NCBI GenBank assembly: GCA_029258735.1
Contig: JAPDKD010000051.1
Location: forward strand, 1 to 34,429
DNA length: 34,429 bases
Reading direction: 5' to 3'
DNA from: an archaeon
Lineage (GTDB): Archaea; Thermoproteota; Thermoprotei; Thermofilales; JAPDKD01
Part shown: positions 7,654 to 24,486 of the stretch, one piece after another
Layout: every line of letters begins with the position of its first letter
Numbering within the stretch: the stretch's first letter is position 1
The notes under the pieces: model-generated
Databases searched by the model: none
What the model was told of the DNA's origin: nothing
Seen by the model: the letters and a program-made list of their open reading frames with translations, nothing else
Translations under genes and position numbers: made by a program

Positions 7654-8460
7654 GTGGGAGAGATGGTGGAGGAAACGGAGCCTCTGATAATTGATTTACA
7701 TTTAAGGAGTATTAAAAATAAAACGTTATTCGTGCCTTTAACTGATCCTATTATGATCTTGTATTCAGTCGCCGACTATATTGTTAACAGGCTTGACATG
7801 TCCCCGAAGCTCTATGTGAGGCTTCCCGGCATGCAGTCGACAATGTTAGCTGTAAAGGGTGCCGCAGTGCATCCAATAGTGATTTTCGGAGCCGCGGGTC
7901 TCCCCTTAATGGTTCTAAGAACACCTCCTCGCATAGGCGAGGAGGCATTTAAATTATATAGTTATTTAGCGAAGGTAATTGTTGACTGGGCTGAACGCAA
8001 CGAGTTTGAGCGAATAGTTATGATAGATGTTAAGCCTGCTACTTCAGAAGATTCTAAGGTTTATTTTGTAACTGAGGAAAAGCTTGTGGAAAAGATTGCG
8101 GGCATGGGGTTTACGCCGTACTCTGGTGTCTTCACTTCTGAAGCTTCATTTTTCTTGGATGAGTGTTTGCGAAGTAGGGTTGACGCTATATTGTTCATAG
8201 TAGAGTCGAAGAAGGTGAAGATACTGCTGGACGCTTATAGGAAGAGGTCTCCAGAGGCTGTTGAAAGAGCTCTTCAAAGTGTGGCTGAACATGATGAAGA
8301 AGCGGTTAGGAACGCTATTAAGGCTTTAAGTAAAGTGTCCGGCGTTAATATTCCGCTGGATAGGCTGCCAGACTTCATTAAAGAGGTCAGCGAGGCTTTA
8401 AAGGAATCTATACCGCAGCTAGCTAGGCGGGCGAGGCCGAGCACGTTTGGCATAGCTTAA
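7654..8460 (+). CDS. PAC2 (proteasome assembly chaperone) family-like protein
   Basis: Overall alpha/beta pattern with a C-terminal 'SGVNIPLDRLPDFIKEVSEAL' tail resembling archaeal PAC2 proteins. No decisive motif seen. Confidence 0.5.
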   Translation: MGEMVEETEPLIIDLHLRSIKNKTLFVPLTDPIMILYSVADYIVNRLDMSPKLYVRLPGMQSTMLAVKGAAVHPIVIFGAAGLPLMVLRTPPRIGEEAFKLYSYLAKVIVDWAERNEFERIVMIDVKPATSEDSKVYFVTEEKLVEKIAGMGFTPYSGVFTSEASFFLDECLRSRVDAILFIVESKKVKILLDAYRKRSPEAVERALQSVAEHDEEAVRNAIKALSKVSGVNIPLDRLPDFIKEVSEALKESIPQLARRARPSTFGIA

Positions 8461-8489: not shown

Positions 8490-8499
8490 ATTATAAATT
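8490..8499 (+). promoter_or_regulatory. TATA-box-like element upstream of leuS
   Basis: attataaatt, about 45-50 bp upstream of the proposed start, with SD aaggaggg at 8528-8535 in between. Confidence 0.5.
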
Positions 8500-8542
8500 T
8501 GTTTGAAGTGTATTCGCTACTTGCTATAAGGAGGGATGTGAT

Positions 8543-11470
8543 ATTGTTGAAAGTATCAACGATAGAGGGCGTTTTTTAGAATTTCTCCGCAGCATAGAGT
8601 CTAAGTGGCAGAAACGCTGGGAGGATGCTAGGATCTTCGAGGCCGACTCTAACGCCTCTAAGCCTAAGTTTTTCCTGACCGTTCCCTACCCGTATACCAG
8701 CGGGCCTCTGCACATAGGCCATGGTCGAACCTACACTATAGGAGATGTAATTGCACGCTACAAAAGGATGCAGGGACTTAATGTGCTGTGGCCGATGGCT
8801 TTCCATATTTCAGGCACCCCTATAGCTTCTATAAGCGCTAGAATAGCTAGGGGCGAAGAAGAAGCCATCAGCCTTTACAAGTCATATGTGTCGCTTTACG
8901 TCAAGGATTCCCAAGAAGTAGACCGTATTGTTAAAAAATTTGTTGACCCGCACGAGGTGGCGCGGTTTTTCTCAACTGTCATTATAAATGATTTTAAGAG
9001 TCTAGGTTTCAGCATTGACTGGCGCCGCAGATTCACTACAGGAGACCCCGAATATCAGGCTTTTATCACGTGGCAATATCTTCACCTAAAAGAAAAAGGC
9101 GTGCTTAAACGTGGGGCTCATCCCGTTCTGTACTGCGTGTGGGATAAGCAGGCAGTGGGCGAAGATGATATTAAGGGCGGTGACGAGATAGGGCCCAGCG
9201 TAGCTGAGTACGTTGGCGTAAAGTTTGAAGTAGAACCCGGTAAGTACCTGGTTGCTGCTACCTTTAGGCCCGAAACTGTCTTTGGGGTCACAAACGTCTG
9301 GATAAATCCCGAGGAAACTTACGTTGAAGCTGAGGTTGACGGTGAAACATGGATAGTTTCTAAGCAGTCAGCTTGGAAGCTGAGCTACCAGAACAAGAAA
9401 GTGAAGATAAAAAGGGAGTTTAAGGGTAAGGAGCTGGTGGGTTTAAAGGTTGAGGCGCCTCTAACTGGGCGCGTGGTTCCAGTTCTTCCAGCCAAGTTCG
9501 TTAACGTGGATGAGGCTACTGGCGTCGTTTACAGCGTGCCTGCTCACGCTCCTTATGATTACGCGGCGCTAATGGATATTAAGCGCGACCCCGAAAAGTA
9601 CGGCGTAACTAATGAACTCGTCGCAGATATAGAGCCAATAAGCATTATTAAAATTGAAGGTTATAGCGACTATCCAGCCAGAGATGCAGTTGAGAAACGC
9701 GGAATAAAGTCTCAGGAGGAACACTATAAACTTGACGATGCTACCCAGGAAATATATAAGGCCGAATTTTACGGGGGTGTGCTTAAGGATAATTGCGGCG
9801 AATTTGCCGGGATTAAAGTCGCTGAAGTCAAGGAGGCCGTCAAGAAGAAGCTTAAAGAGATTGGCCGCGGCGAAACGATATATGAGACAAGCCCTAATCC
9901 CATGTTCTGTAGATGCGGCGGGAGGATAGTTGTCGCCGTTCTGCCCGACCAGTGGTTCATCAACTACGGTGACCCTAGATGGAAGCGACTAGCATGGGAG
10001 TGCCTTAACTCGATGAAGATTATACCTGAGAAGTACAGGAGGCTTTTCGAGGAGACTTTTAACTGGCTTCAGATGAGGCCTGTGGCTAGGAAGAGGGGGC
10101 TGGGTACGCCCCTACCATTCGACAAGGAATGGGTTATTGAGAGCCTCAGCGATTCTACAATTTACATGGCTTTCTACACTATTGCTCACATAATTAGGGA
10201 GAACGGTATAACTGCCGATAAGCTGAAGCCCGAAGTGTTTGACTATGTCTTCTATGGTAATGGTGACGTTGAAGAGGTTGCTAAGCTTAGCGGCATCGAA
10301 ACCGCAGTTCTCGAGCGAATGAGAGAGGAATTTACTTACTGGTATCCGAACGACCAGAGGCACACTGCTATTGGGCATATTACGAACCATCTCAGCTTCT
10401 TCATTTTCCACCACGCACTCCTGTTTCCACGTGAGCACTGGCCAAAGATGATAACGCTGAACGAGTTCGTGATACGAGAAGGCGCCAAGATGAGCAAGAG
10501 CAAGGGTAACGTGCTCCCGCTTGTCGAAGTTCCGCGGAAATACAGCGCCGACTTATTCAGGCTTTACGTAGCTTCAGCCGCTAGCCTAGAAAGCGTAGTA
10601 GACTGGCGGGAGAAAGACGTTAAGGTAGTTCTTGGCAGGCTTATCGACTTCTGGAATTGGATAGCGAAGATCTCTAAGATGCCTGAAGCTGACGAGCCAG
10701 AAAAACTCTCAATTCAAACAAAGTGGCTTATTTCAAAGATAAACTCTGTTGTAAAGGCTTCTACGGAGGCTCTTGATAGCCTGAAAATTAGAGCTTACAT
10801 TTTACAGACATTCTACGGTGTTTTAGAGATCGTTGAAAAGTATGAGGAAATATCTACTAAAATAAGCGAAGCTGAACGGGCTTGGGCGTTAAGGGAAGCC
10901 GCTAAAACATGGGTGAAGCTTCTAGCCCCTGTCATACCTCATCTAGCCGAGGAAGCTTGGAGCGCTCTCAGCTGTAAAGGATTCGTGTCAACTTCTCCAT
11001 GGCCAAAATACGATGAAAGCAAGAGGGACGTGGCTCTAGAAGATGCAGTTGATGCAGTTTTCTCCACTATCCAAGACATCAGGGAGATTATGGAGCTAAC
11101 CGGGGAAAAATACGTCCGCGCTCACGTTTACGTTGCTCCTGCCGAATGGAAATATAAGGTCGTTAAGGCGATTACCAACAGTGAGAACGCGCCCAAGAAG
11201 TCCATCATCTCAGCTATTATGAAGGACCCAGAAATACGCCGCCATGGAAAAGACGCTGTTAAGCTGGTTGACTGGATACTGGAAGGAAGAATCCCGAGAT
11301 CCCACGTTGACAGAGAGATGGAACTAAGGACCTTTACAAGCCTTAAAGAGTACATTGAAGAAAAAACGAAGCTCCAGGTCATTATACATGACGCCACTTC
11401 TCCTGAATACGATCCAGCTGGAAAGGCGAAAACAGCTTCGCCCTTAAAGCCTGGAATTTTCTTAGAATAA
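8543..11470 (+). CDS. leuS: Leucyl-tRNA synthetase, archaeal type (proposed ATT start)
   Basis: ESKWQKRWEDARIFEAD, PYTSGPLHIGHGRTYTIGDVIARYKRMQG (HIGH) and KMSKSKGN. Reading frame is open upstream of the track ORF (8768) back to 8507. SD-preceded ATT at 8543. Confidence 0.93.
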   Translation: MVESINDRGRFLEFLRSIESKWQKRWEDARIFEADSNASKPKFFLTVPYPYTSGPLHIGHGRTYTIGDVIARYKRMQGLNVLWPMAFHISGTPIASISARIARGEEEAISLYKSYVSLYVKDSQEVDRIVKKFVDPHEVARFFSTVIINDFKSLGFSIDWRRRFTTGDPEYQAFITWQYLHLKEKGVLKRGAHPVLYCVWDKQAVGEDDIKGGDEIGPSVAEYVGVKFEVEPGKYLVAATFRPETVFGVTNVWINPEETYVEAEVDGETWIVSKQSAWKLSYQNKKVKIKREFKGKELVGLKVEAPLTGRVVPVLPAKFVNVDEATGVVYSVPAHAPYDYAALMDIKRDPEKYGVTNELVADIEPISIIKIEGYSDYPARDAVEKRGIKSQEEHYKLDDATQEIYKAEFYGGVLKDNCGEFAGIKVAEVKEAVKKKLKEIGRGETIYETSPNPMFCRCGGRIVVAVLPDQWFINYGDPRWKRLAWECLNSMKIIPEKYRRLFEETFNWLQMRPVARKRGLGTPLPFDKEWVIESLSDSTIYMAFYTIAHIIRENGITADKLKPEVFDYVFYGNGDVEEVAKLSGIETAVLERMREEFTYWYPNDQRHTAIGHITNHLSFFIFHHALLFPREHWPKMITLNEFVIREGAKMSKSKGNVLPLVEVPRKYSADLFRLYVASAASLESVVDWREKDVKVVLGRLIDFWNWIAKISKMPEADEPEKLSIQTKWLISKINSVVKASTEALDSLKIRAYILQTFYGVLEIVEKYEEISTKISEAERAWALREAAKTWVKLLAPVIPHLAEEAWSALSCKGFVSTSPWPKYDESKRDVALEDAVDAVFSTIQDIREIMELTGEKYVRAHVYVAPAEWKYKVVKAITNSENAPKKSIISAIMKDPEIRRHGKDAVKLVDWILEGRIPRSHVDREMELRTFTSLKEYIEEKTKLQVIIHDATSPEYDPAGKAKTASPLKPGIFLE

Positions 11471-18305: not shown

Positions 18306-21300
18306 TTAGCTTGAATATTTGCCTCGTTTTGTTCGATTTTTGCCGTTCATTAGTAGTAGAATTAATAAAGGTATTCCTATTAGCCAGGCGTAATTTAGAT
18401 AGGGTAAAACTATAATTAGCACGTTTTTGGTCTCAGTCGTGCATGTAACTCCGCTGCAATATTGTGCAGTTAGCTTTACCGCCATGTTATTTACTGGAAT
18501 TTTTATTGTTTTTTCTGCTAGAGGGGGCAGCGAAATTCGCTTGCTAATTTTTTGTTCATTTAAGGTTACGTTTACTAGCAGGTTTAGAAGCCAGGTTTGG
18601 CGGGAATCTGATTTTAGCGTTATTTTTGCGTAGGGCTGTTCCATTTCTTCGACGAATTCTATTTTTCTTTGGAAGTTTATTTTGTCTTTGAATATCGGGC
18701 TGTTGCTCTTCCACGTGTATAGCGTTTGCTCCTTGTTTCCTATGGCGGCAGCGTTCTCCACGTATAAATATACCTCACCTAGTGAAGCGTTGAAAGATGC
18801 TATGGCTTGTCCGTGCTTGTCGAACTGGATTTTTGTTGAGTTGATGTAGGCAAGCGTGTTTGGTTTTGTTTTGAGGATTATTTTTAGTATTCCATTGGTG
18901 TAGGTTGCGTTTAATACTTCAAAGTGCAGCGGCTCTATTTTTATGTAAGCATTGAATACTTTCCTTAGCTTGGGGGTTTGTGGGATAAATGTTAGCTTGG
19001 TCAGCTTTTGCAGGTTATATTTTGTTAACGCTATTATGGTGGTTCCATCTTTTATCCGGTATTTTTCAGCAGTTTCGACACACTTTATGTCCATGGCTGG
19101 AGCCTGCGAGTTGTTGTGTAGCCAGTAGAAGGATATTTTAGCGTAAATCTTTGATGGTGATATTTCTATGGCTTGGATTTTAGCTTTTATTTCAGTTACT
19201 ATTATGGTTACTTTGGGCTCGTTGCTTGTTACACCTTCAATAATTATTTTTCTTGAGTGTATGCCGGGTTTGGGCTCTCTCCATCGTATTGTGGCTTGTC
19301 CGTTGGTTATGTTCCATTGTTGTTCAAGACCGTCTAGTCTTATTTTTCCCTTCTTAATTGGCGTTCCGTTTAGCCAGTTTATTTTTAGGTGTGCTTCGGC
19401 TAGGCTGCCTGGGCGTACTATGCGGGTGTAGTTTATTATTTCTATGAGGGCTTGTAGGTTTGCGAATTTAATTGTAGCTGTGTGGTAGCATTTTATCCCG
19501 TGTGGCGCGGAAATTAGCTTTATTTCGTAGCTGGCTTCTCGCGGAGATTCCAGTAATAGCTTTGCTTTGCCGTTCCTTACCGTGTATTTTGTTCCGTTTA
19601 TTTCTATAGTTGCTTCTTCTACTGGTTGCCCATTGTGTAGCCAGTATGCATCTAGCGTTATTTGACTTCGAGTATTTGTTGGGAGCGTTGATGGGTCGGC
19701 GTCGAGAACTACGCATGTTGATATTATTGTTGCTGTGCTGGAGTTGTAGGCCGTGATTCCCCTGAAGGGTTCAGCAAGCTTCGTGCTTATTATGTATTCT
19801 CCGGGAGGCAGCTTTACCTCTATTTCGCCTGGTGATGTTAAAGTCTTGTTCGCGATTTTGACCCTTACTCCTCTTATTTCTTGGAGATTATGCGTGAATA
19901 GAGCTTTTACCTGTAGTGTTAGGGGCTTCCAAGCGTCTATCCAGGCATTTTGTGGAGATATTTTGATCAGTATTGAGGTAAATGTTACTTTTATTTTTAG
20001 CGTGTTGCTCACTTTTTTGCCGTTTTTTACAACGTAGAATGTTAGGGTTTTTTCCTCGTTTTCGCCTTCAATGGTGAAGGTTTGCTTCTCTTTAAGGGGC
20101 GCCGTTTTTCCCGTTTCTTCGCATTTTAAAACGGCGCCGTCCAGGTTAAGGCCTTCGGGCAGGCTGCTTTCAATGGTTATGTTGACTTGTTGTCCGTTGT
20201 TCGCCCATATTTCGGGGGAGCGCGTTAATATTAGTACGCCGTTCCATTCTACGGTTAATTCTAAGGGTTTAAGGGTTGAGATTCCCTGGCTGACAGCTTT
20301 TATTAAATATTTTTGTATGCCTATTTCTTCGGACGACAGCTGGATTATGGCTGAACCATTTGAGATATGCTCCGCCTTCTTTTCGTCAATAAGTATTTCC
20401 CCCAAATTTACGGGCTTGTTGTTGTGAGCCCACGAGGCGTATATTTTTACTTGTAGTGGTTGTTTTATGTATCCTTCAAGCTTCTGCTTGTCGGTTAAAA
20501 GCTTTATGTACGTCCAAGTGAGCTTCAGCGAGTTTGCTGCAGAGTAACTAATGTTGTGGGGGGCTTCAATGAGTATGGGCTTTAGCTCTAGGGTCTCGGG
20601 TTCGTCTCTGGATATTTTTATGGTACCTTGCCCTTCCGCGTTTAGGGTTAGATTTATGCCGTTTAATGATATTTTTGCTCCCGCAGCGGGCTCTCCATTG
20701 TGAAGCCAGGTTCCTGAAATTTTTATTTCTATTTCTTTTCCTAACATCTGGAGGGTGCGACTAGCTTCTATTTTTAGCGCTATTCCGGTCGATATAATCG
20801 TGATGCGGTCCGGCGTTATAGACGTGATGTTGTGTGGCGTGTTTACAGGTTTTAGAGAAATTGTATGGGTACCAGCCGTGAAAGGCCCTAAATCTAGCTT
20901 CTCCGGAAGTTCTGCTTTTATTCCCCCTATCTTTATCATTATGTTTACGTTTTCGCCGTTGTGCGTCCAGGTTGCGTGGACCTCTAGCTGTAACTTTTCG
21001 TTTACGTTCAGCCAGATCTGAGATGGCAGGTCGAGTTTAATTGAGGTGAAGATTATGTCCAGCATTTGAGGATTGAACGTAACATTGTAGCCGTCTATTT
21101 CGGCGTATACGAGCGTCTTTATATGCCTATTCTCTCCTAAAAGCGTAAATAATAGCTCGTTTCCTGTGTACTTTTTCTCCTCGCCGGCGAAGTGTATTAC
21201 GGCATTGATTGCCTGACTTCCGTTTGTCCACAGTGCTTTAACCTTTACTTTCAATTCTTCGCCGTTGTTAAGCCAGATTTTGCCGTCTGGTTCTGGCTTT

Positions 21301-21330
21301 TTGCTTAGCTCCAGCTGTATTTTGACAGCT
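18306..21330 (-). repeat. Divergent tandem protein repeat (~85-100 aa unit) within the surface protein
   Basis: Recurring LWTNGSQAINAVIHF, TWTHNGENVNIMIKI, TWLHNGEPAAGAKISL, SWAHNNKPVNLGEILI, LFTHNLQEIRGVRVKI, YWLHNGQPVEEATIEI, NWLNGTPIKKGKIRL, YWLHNNSQAPAMDIKC. Recurring late element TPHNIT/APHNIS/APHGIK. Confidence 0.8.
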
Positions 21331-22604
21331 TCCACTTTTACCTTAAAGCTTAGTTGTCTGCTGCATCCCTGTGCCTCGATGAGTATTTGATATGTTTTCT
21401 CTCCGAATGTTCTCTCCGTTATTTGGAATTCGGCTTCTCCATTTTTATCCGTCTCTTTTTTCCATTCTTGGAGGGAGATTTTAACTCCCTTGAGCGGCTT
21501 TTGATCGTACTTTCTGAACACGTAGACTTTAACATGAAAAGGCTTGTTTATTAGGGCTTGTGAGGGCGATATTATTTTTGCCTCTATTTCTGAAATCACA
21601 ATTTGGAAGTTTTTAAATCCAAGCCTGTAGTCGCTTTTCACTACTGCCGTAAGAGTGTATTTTCCCTGAGCGTTAGGAAGAGTTAATTCTCCGTTGTCTG
21701 ACGTTTTTATTATGCTTCCGGAGGAATCGTAAAGCTCTAGATTTGCCGTTAAATCTGTTCCGCATATTTTAACTTCTTCGCCGGGCAGGTAAAACGCTCT
21801 TGATGGGTTAATAGAGGCATTTTTCAGCAGGTTTTCGGATTCTAGCTCTATTTGGACTGTGCCTTGAAGCTTAACGGTGTTACTGTTTAATACACGGCAT
21901 GATCCTTGCAAGCATTTAGTAAAGGTTAGGTCTGGCGGTAGCTTGAGCACGGATTTCGTTGGGACGTTACCAGTTAGTCTATGTATAATTTTTGTTCCGC
22001 TTGGCGTTGCAGTATGCCTTAGCTCGTACTTCTTTAATTCCTCAAACTGAACGTTGTATGTATTGGTGAAATCTATTCCCACAACGTAGCCATTTACCTG
22101 AATTTCTTGACTAAATACTATTTTTACTACGTCGTTTTTTGAGGCGTTTAGGGTAACTGTTGCTTGCCTATTGCTTAGAGAGGCGATGAGCACTTCGTTG
22201 AGGTATATTTTCACTTGTAGGGAGTAGCTTGCGGAGCCGCATGTAGGCGGATTTCCGGAAGTCGTTCCACAGCTTCCCACGTCAACCTGCATGTTAGAAG
22301 TCATAGAATACTTTAGCTTGGTGGCTGGCTTATCCAGCGTGAATTGGACAGAAACGACTATTGACGATGGAGAAGGGTCTCCATTTACTATGTCCACGTG
22401 CTTTGATAAGCTAGTGGAGGAAGAAAAAGTGCCAGTGCTCCACCTTCCCTCGATGCTGGTCCAGTCGTACCCTACGGCGTAGAGAGTTTTTAAATTGTAA
22501 GTTGGCGTTGACGATTCTTTTTCAATAAGGTATGCTGACGAAACCAGCAAAACGGTACATGCCATTACGAATATAGTTAGTTTGAGCAGGTTGGTTTTCA
22601 TCAT
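18306..22604 (-). CDS. Large cell-surface protein: signal peptide/TM, N-terminal domain, ~8 tandem Ig-like repeats, C-terminal TM anchor
   Basis: N-terminal KTNLLKLTIFVMACTVLLVSSAYL; repeated 'W-x-H-N-G-x-P' segments; C-terminal LNYAWLIGIPLLILLLMNGKNRTKRGKYSS; many N-x-S/T sequons. Confidence 0.85.
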   Translation of the reverse strand: MMKTNLLKLTIFVMACTVLLVSSAYLIEKESSTPTYNLKTLYAVGYDWTSIEGRWSTGTFSSSTSLSKHVDIVNGDPSPSSIVVSVQFTLDKPATKLKYSMTSNMQVDVGSCGTTSGNPPTCGSASYSLQVKIYLNEVLIASLSNRQATVTLNASKNDVVKIVFSQEIQVNGYVVGIDFTNTYNVQFEELKKYELRHTATPSGTKIIHRLTGNVPTKSVLKLPPDLTFTKCLQGSCRVLNSNTVKLQGTVQIELESENLLKNASINPSRAFYLPGEEVKICGTDLTANLELYDSSGSIIKTSDNGELTLPNAQGKYTLTAVVKSDYRLGFKNFQIVISEIEAKIISPSQALINKPFHVKVYVFRKYDQKPLKGVKISLQEWKKETDKNGEAEFQITERTFGEKTYQILIEAQGCSRQLSFKVKVEAVKIQLELSKKPEPDGKIWLNNGEELKVKVKALWTNGSQAINAVIHFAGEEKKYTGNELLFTLLGENRHIKTLVYAEIDGYNVTFNPQMLDIIFTSIKLDLPSQIWLNVNEKLQLEVHATWTHNGENVNIMIKIGGIKAELPEKLDLGPFTAGTHTISLKPVNTPHNITSITPDRITIISTGIALKIEASRTLQMLGKEIEIKISGTWLHNGEPAAGAKISLNGINLTLNAEGQGTIKISRDEPETLELKPILIEAPHNISYSAANSLKLTWTYIKLLTDKQKLEGYIKQPLQVKIYASWAHNNKPVNLGEILIDEKKAEHISNGSAIIQLSSEEIGIQKYLIKAVSQGISTLKPLELTVEWNGVLILTRSPEIWANNGQQVNITIESSLPEGLNLDGAVLKCEETGKTAPLKEKQTFTIEGENEEKTLTFYVVKNGKKVSNTLKIKVTFTSILIKISPQNAWIDAWKPLTLQVKALFTHNLQEIRGVRVKIANKTLTSPGEIEVKLPPGEYIISTKLAEPFRGITAYNSSTATIISTCVVLDADPSTLPTNTRSQITLDAYWLHNGQPVEEATIEINGTKYTVRNGKAKLLLESPREASYEIKLISAPHGIKCYHTATIKFANLQALIEIINYTRIVRPGSLAEAHLKINWLNGTPIKKGKIRLDGLEQQWNITNGQATIRWREPKPGIHSRKIIIEGVTSNEPKVTIIVTEIKAKIQAIEISPSKIYAKISFYWLHNNSQAPAMDIKCVETAEKYRIKDGTTIIALTKYNLQKLTKLTFIPQTPKLRKVFNAYIKIEPLHFEVLNATYTNGILKIILKTKPNTLAYINSTKIQFDKHGQAIASFNASLGEVYLYVENAAAIGNKEQTLYTWKSNSPIFKDKINFQRKIEFVEEMEQPYAKITLKSDSRQTWLLNLLVNVTLNEQKISKRISLPPLAEKTIKIPVNNMAVKLTAQYCSGVTCTTETKNVLIIVLPYLNYAWLIGIPLLILLLMNGKNRTKRGKYSS

Positions 22605-22662: not shown

Positions 22663-24486
22663 ATGAGAAGAGCAGCTATATTATTCATTTTACTTGTTGC
22701 CATTGGATCGATTGCCTATCAAGCCCCATATATTAAAGTAATTGGAGAGGGATGGATATACGCTCCTGCGGTTTCTCAGGTTGGCGGGAGGTATGTAGGT
22801 GCTCTTGTAAATATTTCATTGACAGTTACTGAGGGGTCTGGAAACGTCTATGTATCTACGTCTCCCCTAACGGAGATAGATATGCAAGCCACTGCGCAAA
22901 TAGCTGCCAGGACGGCATGCAACCTTCTCGGCCTAAACTTCTCTAAATATAATTTTCTCTACATGGTGCGGGCTGACAGCATAATCGTCGGCGGACCAAG
23001 CGCGGGAGCCGTAATGACCATACTAACTTACTCCGTTCTCTCCGGAAAGCCAATAAACCGTAGCGTGATGATGACTGGCACAATAAACCCAGACGGAAGT
23101 GTGGGCCAAGTCGGAGGCGTGAAGGAGAAAATGGAGGCGGCAATCAGCGGCGGCGCCAAGCTATTCCTAGTACCTCCAGGCCAAAGCGTAGTTACAACTT
23201 ACTCGTACTCATACAAGAAAATAGGCCCCTTCACTGTTCGCTACATCACATCGCAAAAGGTAAATCTGACAAAGTTAGCCCGCGAAAAGTACGGCGTAGC
23301 CGTTAGAGAAATTGGAGACATAAGGGAAGCATTATCCTATTTCCTCGGAGTAAAAATTTCAGAGAAAGAGTCCGTTAAGCCTCCTTATCCCAGCACGATA
23401 GAAACGGTCATAAATGAGGTAAACTCGAGGATAAAGTTAGAGACTCTTAGAATTCTTGGAGAAGCTTCCACGCGAAAAAGTCAAGCTAATCCCCTCCTTT
23501 ACTATACTATAGTTCAGCTCATCGCCAAGGCAAACAGCACTATTAGACTTGCAGAGCAAGCCCCAACGTTTCGAAAAATGTTGTTGTACAGAGAGAGCCT
23601 AAGCTTGGCAAAGGAGGCAGAGCTTCTGACGTACTCGGAAACAAGTGACGCCCTTGAGAAGAAAGTAAAGGAAATAGTTTCCGACTTTTCTAATCTTGCG
23701 AATAGAACAGCGCCGTGCTGGTGCGACACGTGCATAATAGGTCTGCAATACTTAATTCAGGCCGAAATAGAGCTTGCCGACGCAGAAAAGATGTGGAAGG
23801 AAAGCCTTTTAGACGCTCTATCAGCCGCTTCTAAAGCATACGCCGATATCTTCATAGCAAAACAGCTGACTGAACAGCAAGCCGAAAAATTCCGCAACAG
23901 ATTAATCGCATCAAAAGATCTGCTAACAGATACCTCAGCAATCCTGGCGTATTCGCAAGCCCTAGTTCAGGGTCCGGGCAAAAGCTACCTCACAAATGCA
24001 CGTATACTTTACGATTTAGCAAAAAAATACCTTTTAAACGGTGAAGAATGCAAAGCAGCAATAGCTCTAGTCGAGTCACAATCCTACGCTGAGCTAGCGC
24101 TGTCTTACGAGCAAGCCCTAATAAGTCAGAAAGCAACTCAAAACATACTTGAAAGGTCCAGAGCAAAAGCGGCGCTGCTTGCAGGCGAGGCCCAAAACCG
24201 CAGCATGCTACCAGCCTACTACTATTATCTCGCGGACTCTTCACGTAGCTTCCAAGAAAAATACCTCTACTATAGGTTGGCGGCACACTTCTCGCAGCTA
24301 CTCTCAGGGAATCACATAGTATCTTATACTCAGACTCACTCCAATAAAAGTAAAGAAAAACCAAGGAACCCGATAACGCCTCCACAGCCGCAAACTGAGG
24401 CCGAGAATGAAATCGATCTTAAAAAACTAGCCTTGCTTGTAATACTTATAGCTTTAATAGTTTACCTCGTTCTTCGCAAACGCTAA
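22663..24486 (+). CDS. Membrane-anchored Lon-like (S16-type) archaeal serine protease
   Basis: N-terminal signal/TM; IVGGPSAGAVMTILTY (catalytic Ser) and GSVGQVGGVKEKMEAAISGGAKLFLVP (catalytic Lys region); helical C-terminus and terminal TM LKKLALLVILIALIVYLVLRKR. Confidence 0.9.
   Translation: MRRAAILFILLVAIGSIAYQAPYIKVIGEGWIYAPAVSQVGGRYVGALVNISLTVTEGSGNVYVSTSPLTEIDMQATAQIAARTACNLLGLNFSKYNFLYMVRADSIIVGGPSAGAVMTILTYSVLSGKPINRSVMMTGTINPDGSVGQVGGVKEKMEAAISGGAKLFLVPPGQSVVTTYSYSYKKIGPFTVRYITSQKVNLTKLAREKYGVAVREIGDIREALSYFLGVKISEKESVKPPYPSTIETVINEVNSRIKLETLRILGEASTRKSQANPLLYYTIVQLIAKANSTIRLAEQAPTFRKMLLYRESLSLAKEAELLTYSETSDALEKKVKEIVSDFSNLANRTAPCWCDTCIIGLQYLIQAEIELADAEKMWKESLLDALSAASKAYADIFIAKQLTEQQAEKFRNRLIASKDLLTDTSAILAYSQALVQGPGKSYLTNARILYDLAKKYLLNGEECKAAIALVESQSYAELALSYEQALISQKATQNILERSRAKAALLAGEAQNRSMLPAYYYYLADSSRSFQEKYLYYRLAAHFSQLLSGNHIVSYTQTHSNKSKEKPRNPITPPQPQTEAENEIDLKKLALLVILIALIVYLVLRKR

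Follow-up and report, generated by a model that had tools for sequence, protein, structure and literature searches.

Bacterial infC, the essential translation gene for initiation factor IF3, has an AUU start codon accompanied by a Shine-Dalgarno (SD) sequence, and because IF3 itself rejects AUU the gene is under direct feedback from its product. Leucyl-tRNA synthetase (LeuRS) is not a start-selection factor. Bacterial prfB, encoding release factor RF2, contains a programmed +1 frameshift with a UGA codon that is read by the product's own pathway.

The archaeal start codons named in excerpts of an initiation review are AUG, GUG and UUG (PMC7531240), and a study of S. solfataricus (Saccharolobus) indicates that aIF1 favours discrimination against non-canonical starts (PMC6237735). 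In hungry-codon frameshifting an A-site codon left without its aminoacyl-tRNA leads to slippage of the tRNA in the P site (Gallant and Lindsley, cited in an excerpt of PMC8211752). Excerpts of two reviews on recoding (PMC8211752, PMC5009743) describe no example in leuS, and searches of the open-access literature on archaeal AUU starts and on frameshifting in leuS returned nothing on point, so an earlier report is possible.

The leuS gene of the window

The window, which is the whole 34,429-nucleotide stretch of archaeal DNA analysed here, is the leuS contig (C6) of a 1.41 Mb metagenome-assembled genome (MAG) of 139 contigs that is 85% complete and has one full-length leuS. The gene occupies 8543–11470 on the forward strand, stop codon included, and encodes a predicted archaeal LeuRS of 975 aa with matches to TIGR00395 (1035 bits against a curated cut-off of 648.5, covering positions 2–938 of the 938-position profile), PRK12300 (1204 bits), PF00133, PF08264 and PF13603. 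A PAC2-family gene (7654–8460) precedes it, and 82 nt separate the stop of that gene from the proposed ATT start. A tyrosine recombinase gene (Phage_integrase, PF00589; 12281–13156, reverse strand) lies close downstream of leuS and may belong to a mobile element. Further along, a 1432-aa protein encoded at 18306–22604 (reverse strand) has no Pfam match above the gathering score and is adjoined by a Lon-type protease domain protein (22663–24486).

The leuS frame opens after a TGA (8504–8506) and then runs for 87 codons without ATG, GTG or TTG until the ATG at 8768; this absence, reported in the preliminary description, is confirmed by codon reading. Elsewhere in the gene 33 of 900 codons are ATG, GTG or TTG, so that 3.2 would be expected in such a stretch (P(none) = 0.039), and taken alone the deviation is only mildly unusual. 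The stretch matters because the conserved LeuRS N-terminus is encoded there: on the protein read from ATT 8543 the NCBIfam leuS_arch match begins at residue 17 and that of PRK12300 at residue 14, and the HIGH motif is also encoded 5' of 8768. The gene thus has no in-frame ATG, GTG or TTG 5' of its conserved coding sequence, as expected for an AUH start. The open reading frame list begins leuS at ATG 8768, the first canonical start, which lies 3' of HIGH. That LeuRS truly starts there, with the preceding 75 residues untranslated, is extremely improbable, since the product would lose HIGH and a conserved KWQKRW segment kept by the relatives, and the family models already match from residue 14 of the longer protein. 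Loss of the HIGH motif contradicts a functional class I synthetase.

The other elements previously described around the start were all recovered. The proposed LeuRS-frame start codon, ATT (8543–8545), lies 8 nt after an SD core GGAGG (8530–8534), a spacing suited to an AUH start, and a putative TATA-like element, attataaatt (8490–8499), lies further upstream, all on the forward strand. ATT is not rare within the gene, accounting for 29 of 68 isoleucine codons. The AUU also falls within the 5' arm of a 9-bp hairpin, UAUUGUUGA-aagua-UCAACGAUA (8542–8564, forward strand), that would sequester it (fold z -2.3 for segment 8521–8600, and -2.8). The hairpin was rejected as a common regulator, being present in this genome only, with fold z-scores of relatives scattering around zero.

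One base after the ATT, and absent from the preliminary description, is an overlapping TTG TTG in the +1 frame (8544–8549, forward strand), consisting of a standard start codon (8544–8546) and a leucine codon (8547–8549); this frame is closed by TAG after GTT TTT. The TTG and the leucine codon are kept in relatives, a pattern that points to this putative decoy as strongly as to the AUU. The TTG frame and leuS can be joined by a single base at one place only, a T6 run at approximately 8572–8577, where one additional T would fuse them, as would a -1 slip. Translation could accordingly be imagined to begin at UUG 8544, whose SD spacing is fair (9 nt), or at GUG 8538, yielding a protein MLKVSTIEGVFLEFLRSIE... 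through a -1 shift at the run or because a T has been lost from the assembly by homopolymer error.

The start site in the window's order

We gathered the leuS 5' ends of almost every genome of the class with a match. The labels Thermofilum-, Sulfolobaceae-, Caldivirga- and Vulcanisaeta-like used for these genomes were assigned from kinship, among other cues, and with names so assigned the window MAG shares its order with Thermofilum-like genomes. Its own family (f1) consists of this one genome, and relatives start at the level of the order; when GTDB was scanned for a nearer leuS, the highest identity, counted on a best segment, was 52%. The window LeuRS is 57–61% identical to those of f8, f11 and f6 (genomes of other orders of the class and one of its own order), and only 38–46% identical to those of most members of its own order, which suggests either gene transfer or the existence of two ancient LeuRS lineages.

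Of the 24 leuS genes of the order, 19 contain ATTG(C/T)T, always in frame and usually with an SD-like sequence (GGTG-, GGTGR-, GGAGG- or similar type) 3–9 nt before it. The remaining five genes have TTTGCT (L130, L133 and L136), GTG after GGAGG (L007, family f6) or ATG (L153, family f3). Comparison of leuS 5' ends among relatives, as originally called for, therefore upholds the site and its frame, and departs from the expectation in the three genomes with UUU and the two with canonical starts. Five genes of the order lack any canonical in-frame start (the window, L031, L138, L130 and L133), and two of these, L031 (G003) and L138 (G013), are in complete genomes. The ATTGCT sequence is also found in three of four genomes of the distant family f27, in which L202 (complete genome G244) has no canonical start. 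Scanning of the other families for ATTG(C/T)T gave only two matches, both 5' of canonical ATG starts; single matches in f20 and f23 are not counted among these. Complete single-contig genomes without an in-frame leuS start further include those of L227 (G214) and L233 (G141).

This recurrence bears directly on the T6 run. A single base there would restore a canonical start to the window gene; however, 18 other genomes of the order, and some outside it, share an ATT-G(C/T)T at this site in the LeuRS frame, the start-less relatives include complete genomes, and no T-run is conserved at the matching place. An error or shift at the run would fit the window alone, because an error here would not create recurrence in relatives. 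An indel, which the preliminary description had itself named as the finding that would overturn its reading, thus appears unlikely in the window assembly, and a start at UUG 8544 or GUG 8538 joined to leuS through the run is improbable.

About half of the 24 members carry an in-frame GTG or ATG 6–18 nt 5' of ATT-GCT, and a conventional start is therefore possible for these. The GTG contained within GGTG was rejected as a universal start, because its distance from the AUN (6, 8, 9, 10 or 11 nt), and hence its frame, varies. Conservation of ATT-GCT as a protein motif, Ile-Ala, is also ruled out, as the same codons are always chosen in spite of the genes' own usage: in eight such leuS genes ATT provides 12% of isoleucine codons and GCT 22% of alanine codons, and in L028 ATT is 1 of 40 isoleucine codons. 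The nucleotides themselves are therefore under selection. In the LeuRS frame the signal amounts to AUU with a small residue (Ala or Val) in second place. A frame set one base further on makes it UUG with leucine always as the next residue, encoded by CTA, CTC, CTT or TTG with the third base free; the two readings fit equally. The A of AUU has been lost in L130, L133 and L136 (TTTGCTA), yet the TTG-CTA is retained.

Controls indicate that the abnormal start is specific to leuS. All 17 valS genes analysed, from 17 of 30 loci and nearly all in the window's order (the mini-ORF families described below lying outside it), have a canonical start and none is start-less; the four genes of the second LeuRS paralogue all begin with ATG or GTG.

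Probable initiation at AUN in the Sulfolobaceae-like family

All 30 leuS loci of the Sulfolobaceae-like family f29 carry AUN at the corresponding site (15 ATT, 8 ATA, 3 ATC and 4 ATG), in most cases 5–7 nt after GGTGA. A canonical start is missing from twelve of the 30, and the ATT of L236 directly follows a TAG. Within-genus pairwise differences at codon positions 1, 2 and 3 number 89, 62 and 255 after the AUN, 38, 29 and 42 upstream of it, and 0, 0 and 1 inside it; third-position periodicity begins right after the AUN, and the f29 leuS reading frame therefore starts there. The second codon mostly encodes a small residue (Ser, Pro or Thr), as at true N-termini. Among the comparisons, none supports AUH initiation of leuS more strongly than these data and the controls; the periodicity is that of the Sulfolobaceae-like genomes, the window's family being a single genome.

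Taken with the 19 of 24 genes of the order and the canonical-start controls, the 30 AUN loci support the earlier assignment of ATT 8543, and AUU 8543 is probably the LeuRS-frame start of the window leuS. The SD GGAGG would position the small subunit, and leuS would be translated from this codon. Alternatively, LeuRS could be made by frameshifting, with initiation at the UUG, a -1 slip of the initiator tRNA, and the AUU as merely the landing codon. The TTG and its leucine codon (CTA, CTC, CTT or TTG) are constrained as closely as ATT-GCT, genomes of f2 and g12 retain TTG-CTA without the AUU, and a leucine codon also features in the out-of-frame mini-ORFs of other families; against this, the Sulfolobaceae-like genes, in which a UUG-Leu overlap was looked for and none was found, have AUN nonetheless, and slippage of the initiator tRNA would be needed. 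We consider this route possible but clearly less likely than direct initiation at AUU. The two are inseparable by sequence because both reach the same LeuRS-frame codon, and the slip overlaps our preferred explanation rather than excluding it.

Candidate out-of-frame starts in other families

A different arrangement is present in f8, f11, f13 (g25, g26 and g27) and f14, where leuS is preceded by an out-of-frame ATG (GTG in f14) from which a +1 shift is needed to reach leuS. The resulting mini-ORFs are mostly 4–11 codons long and contain (A/T)TT followed by a leucine codon, CTN, in 18 of 18 sequences, a count that is descriptive and no independent test because the sequences were picked after the pattern was seen. 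A +1 slip at this position yields TTC as the LeuRS-frame codon. The leucine codon varies at its third base only (CTA, CTC or CTT) while the codon in the LeuRS frame may stand for Ser, Leu, Phe or Tyr. The g25-type mini-ORF is ATG CGG TTT CTT CTC AAG TAA. Among the five g25 genomes, 210 comparisons within a 21 nt block showed no difference, whereas its flanks gave 120 differences in 180 comparisons on the near upstream side and 85 in 390 on the near downstream side. An internal GGTGAT-like sequence lies 3 nt 5' of ATT-CTN in f8 and f11. L005, L006, L151 and L012 have no in-frame canonical leuS start, and a shift or other unusual event is therefore needed; in g26 an in-frame ATG follows the mini-ORF and re-initiation is possible. 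A bulge-helix-bulge mRNA intron at the leuS 5' end was rejected by inspection, as the spacing between element and leuS leaves no room for one in the mini-ORF families.

The (A/T)TT-CTN loci (L003–L006, L151, L012, L014, L015, L115, L142, L008–L011, L112–L114, L150, L155, L013, L116 and L120) are candidates for +1 programmed frameshifting at a leucine codon. In one MAG (G036) the contigs C215 (L006) and C155 (L151) carry either two similar leuS copies or strain variants, and their mini-ORFs differ by one base, which is synonymous in the mini-ORF and non-synonymous in the leuS frame.

A possible leucine-sensing step

The abnormal leuS starts in relatives across the phylum suggest that translation of this gene is deliberately restrained or regulated. 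At the window gene, two overlapping codons with one mismatch each, AUU and UUG, could both be open to the initiator tRNA on the SD-bound small subunit; of these, AUU sets the LeuRS frame and UUG, one base later, a dead-end frame that continues into a leucine codon. With plentiful Leu-tRNA, initiation at UUG would enter the short dead-end frame and LeuRS output would be low; with scarce Leu-tRNA the A site would be empty, the initiator tRNA could settle back one base onto AUU, and LeuRS would be made. We propose this leucine-sensing step only tentatively, on the ground that two distinct layouts both place a leucine codon in the competing frame. Leucine sensing would not be general, because f29 lacks UUG-Leu.

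It is conceivable, if somewhat doubtful, that leuS is gated by the supply of leucyl-tRNA in much of the phylum. An out-of-frame UUG, ATG or GUG would lead directly or soon into a leucine codon, and if this were left unfilled the ribosome would shift into the LeuRS frame, by -1 to AUU in the window's group and by +1 to UUC in the mini-ORF group. If the starts proposed here are right, one essential synthetase gene keeps a non-canonical start over much of an archaeal phylum, as AUU in the window's group, as AUU, AUA or AUC in the Sulfolobaceae-like genomes, and elsewhere as a +1 frameshift that probably takes place at a leucine codon. Gene callers limited to ATG, GTG and TTG would shorten these LeuRS proteins or give them a wrong start. 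The questions as to whether AUU, AUA and AUC act as starts in vivo, and whether a synthetase gene has its frame chosen according to tRNA charging, could be addressed in culturable Sulfolobales.

Comparison with known systems

The window leuS resembles infC, after which the preliminary description suggested that a rare start could tune expression, in the combination of an AUU start and an SD in an essential translation gene; it differs in being archaeal and in that IF3 acts back on its own AUU, whereas LeuRS has no role in start selection. The factor aIF1 would be expected to oppose AUU initiation, and the excerpts of the study describing it make no link to leuS (PMC6237735). Hungry-codon frameshifting shares with our proposal the slip of a P-site tRNA at an unfilled A-site codon but is a starvation effect, and in the excerpts of two reviews it is not described as a control of the cognate synthetase gene (PMC8211752, PMC5009743).

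A layout of the prfB type is found in f8, f11, f13 (all three of its groups) and f14 and not in the window, where a TGA directly follows ATG 8536, a codon from which a +1 shift would be required. In f8 and f11 the resemblance to prfB extends to the out-of-frame start, the internal SD-like GGTGAT, the 3 nt spacing, the slip codon and a codon of the product's own pathway (Leu in place of UGA); the differences are that charged tRNA rather than release factor would be sensed and that the genes are archaeal. Gating of leuS by leucyl-tRNA, if true, would be to a synthetase what the frameshift switch is to RF2.
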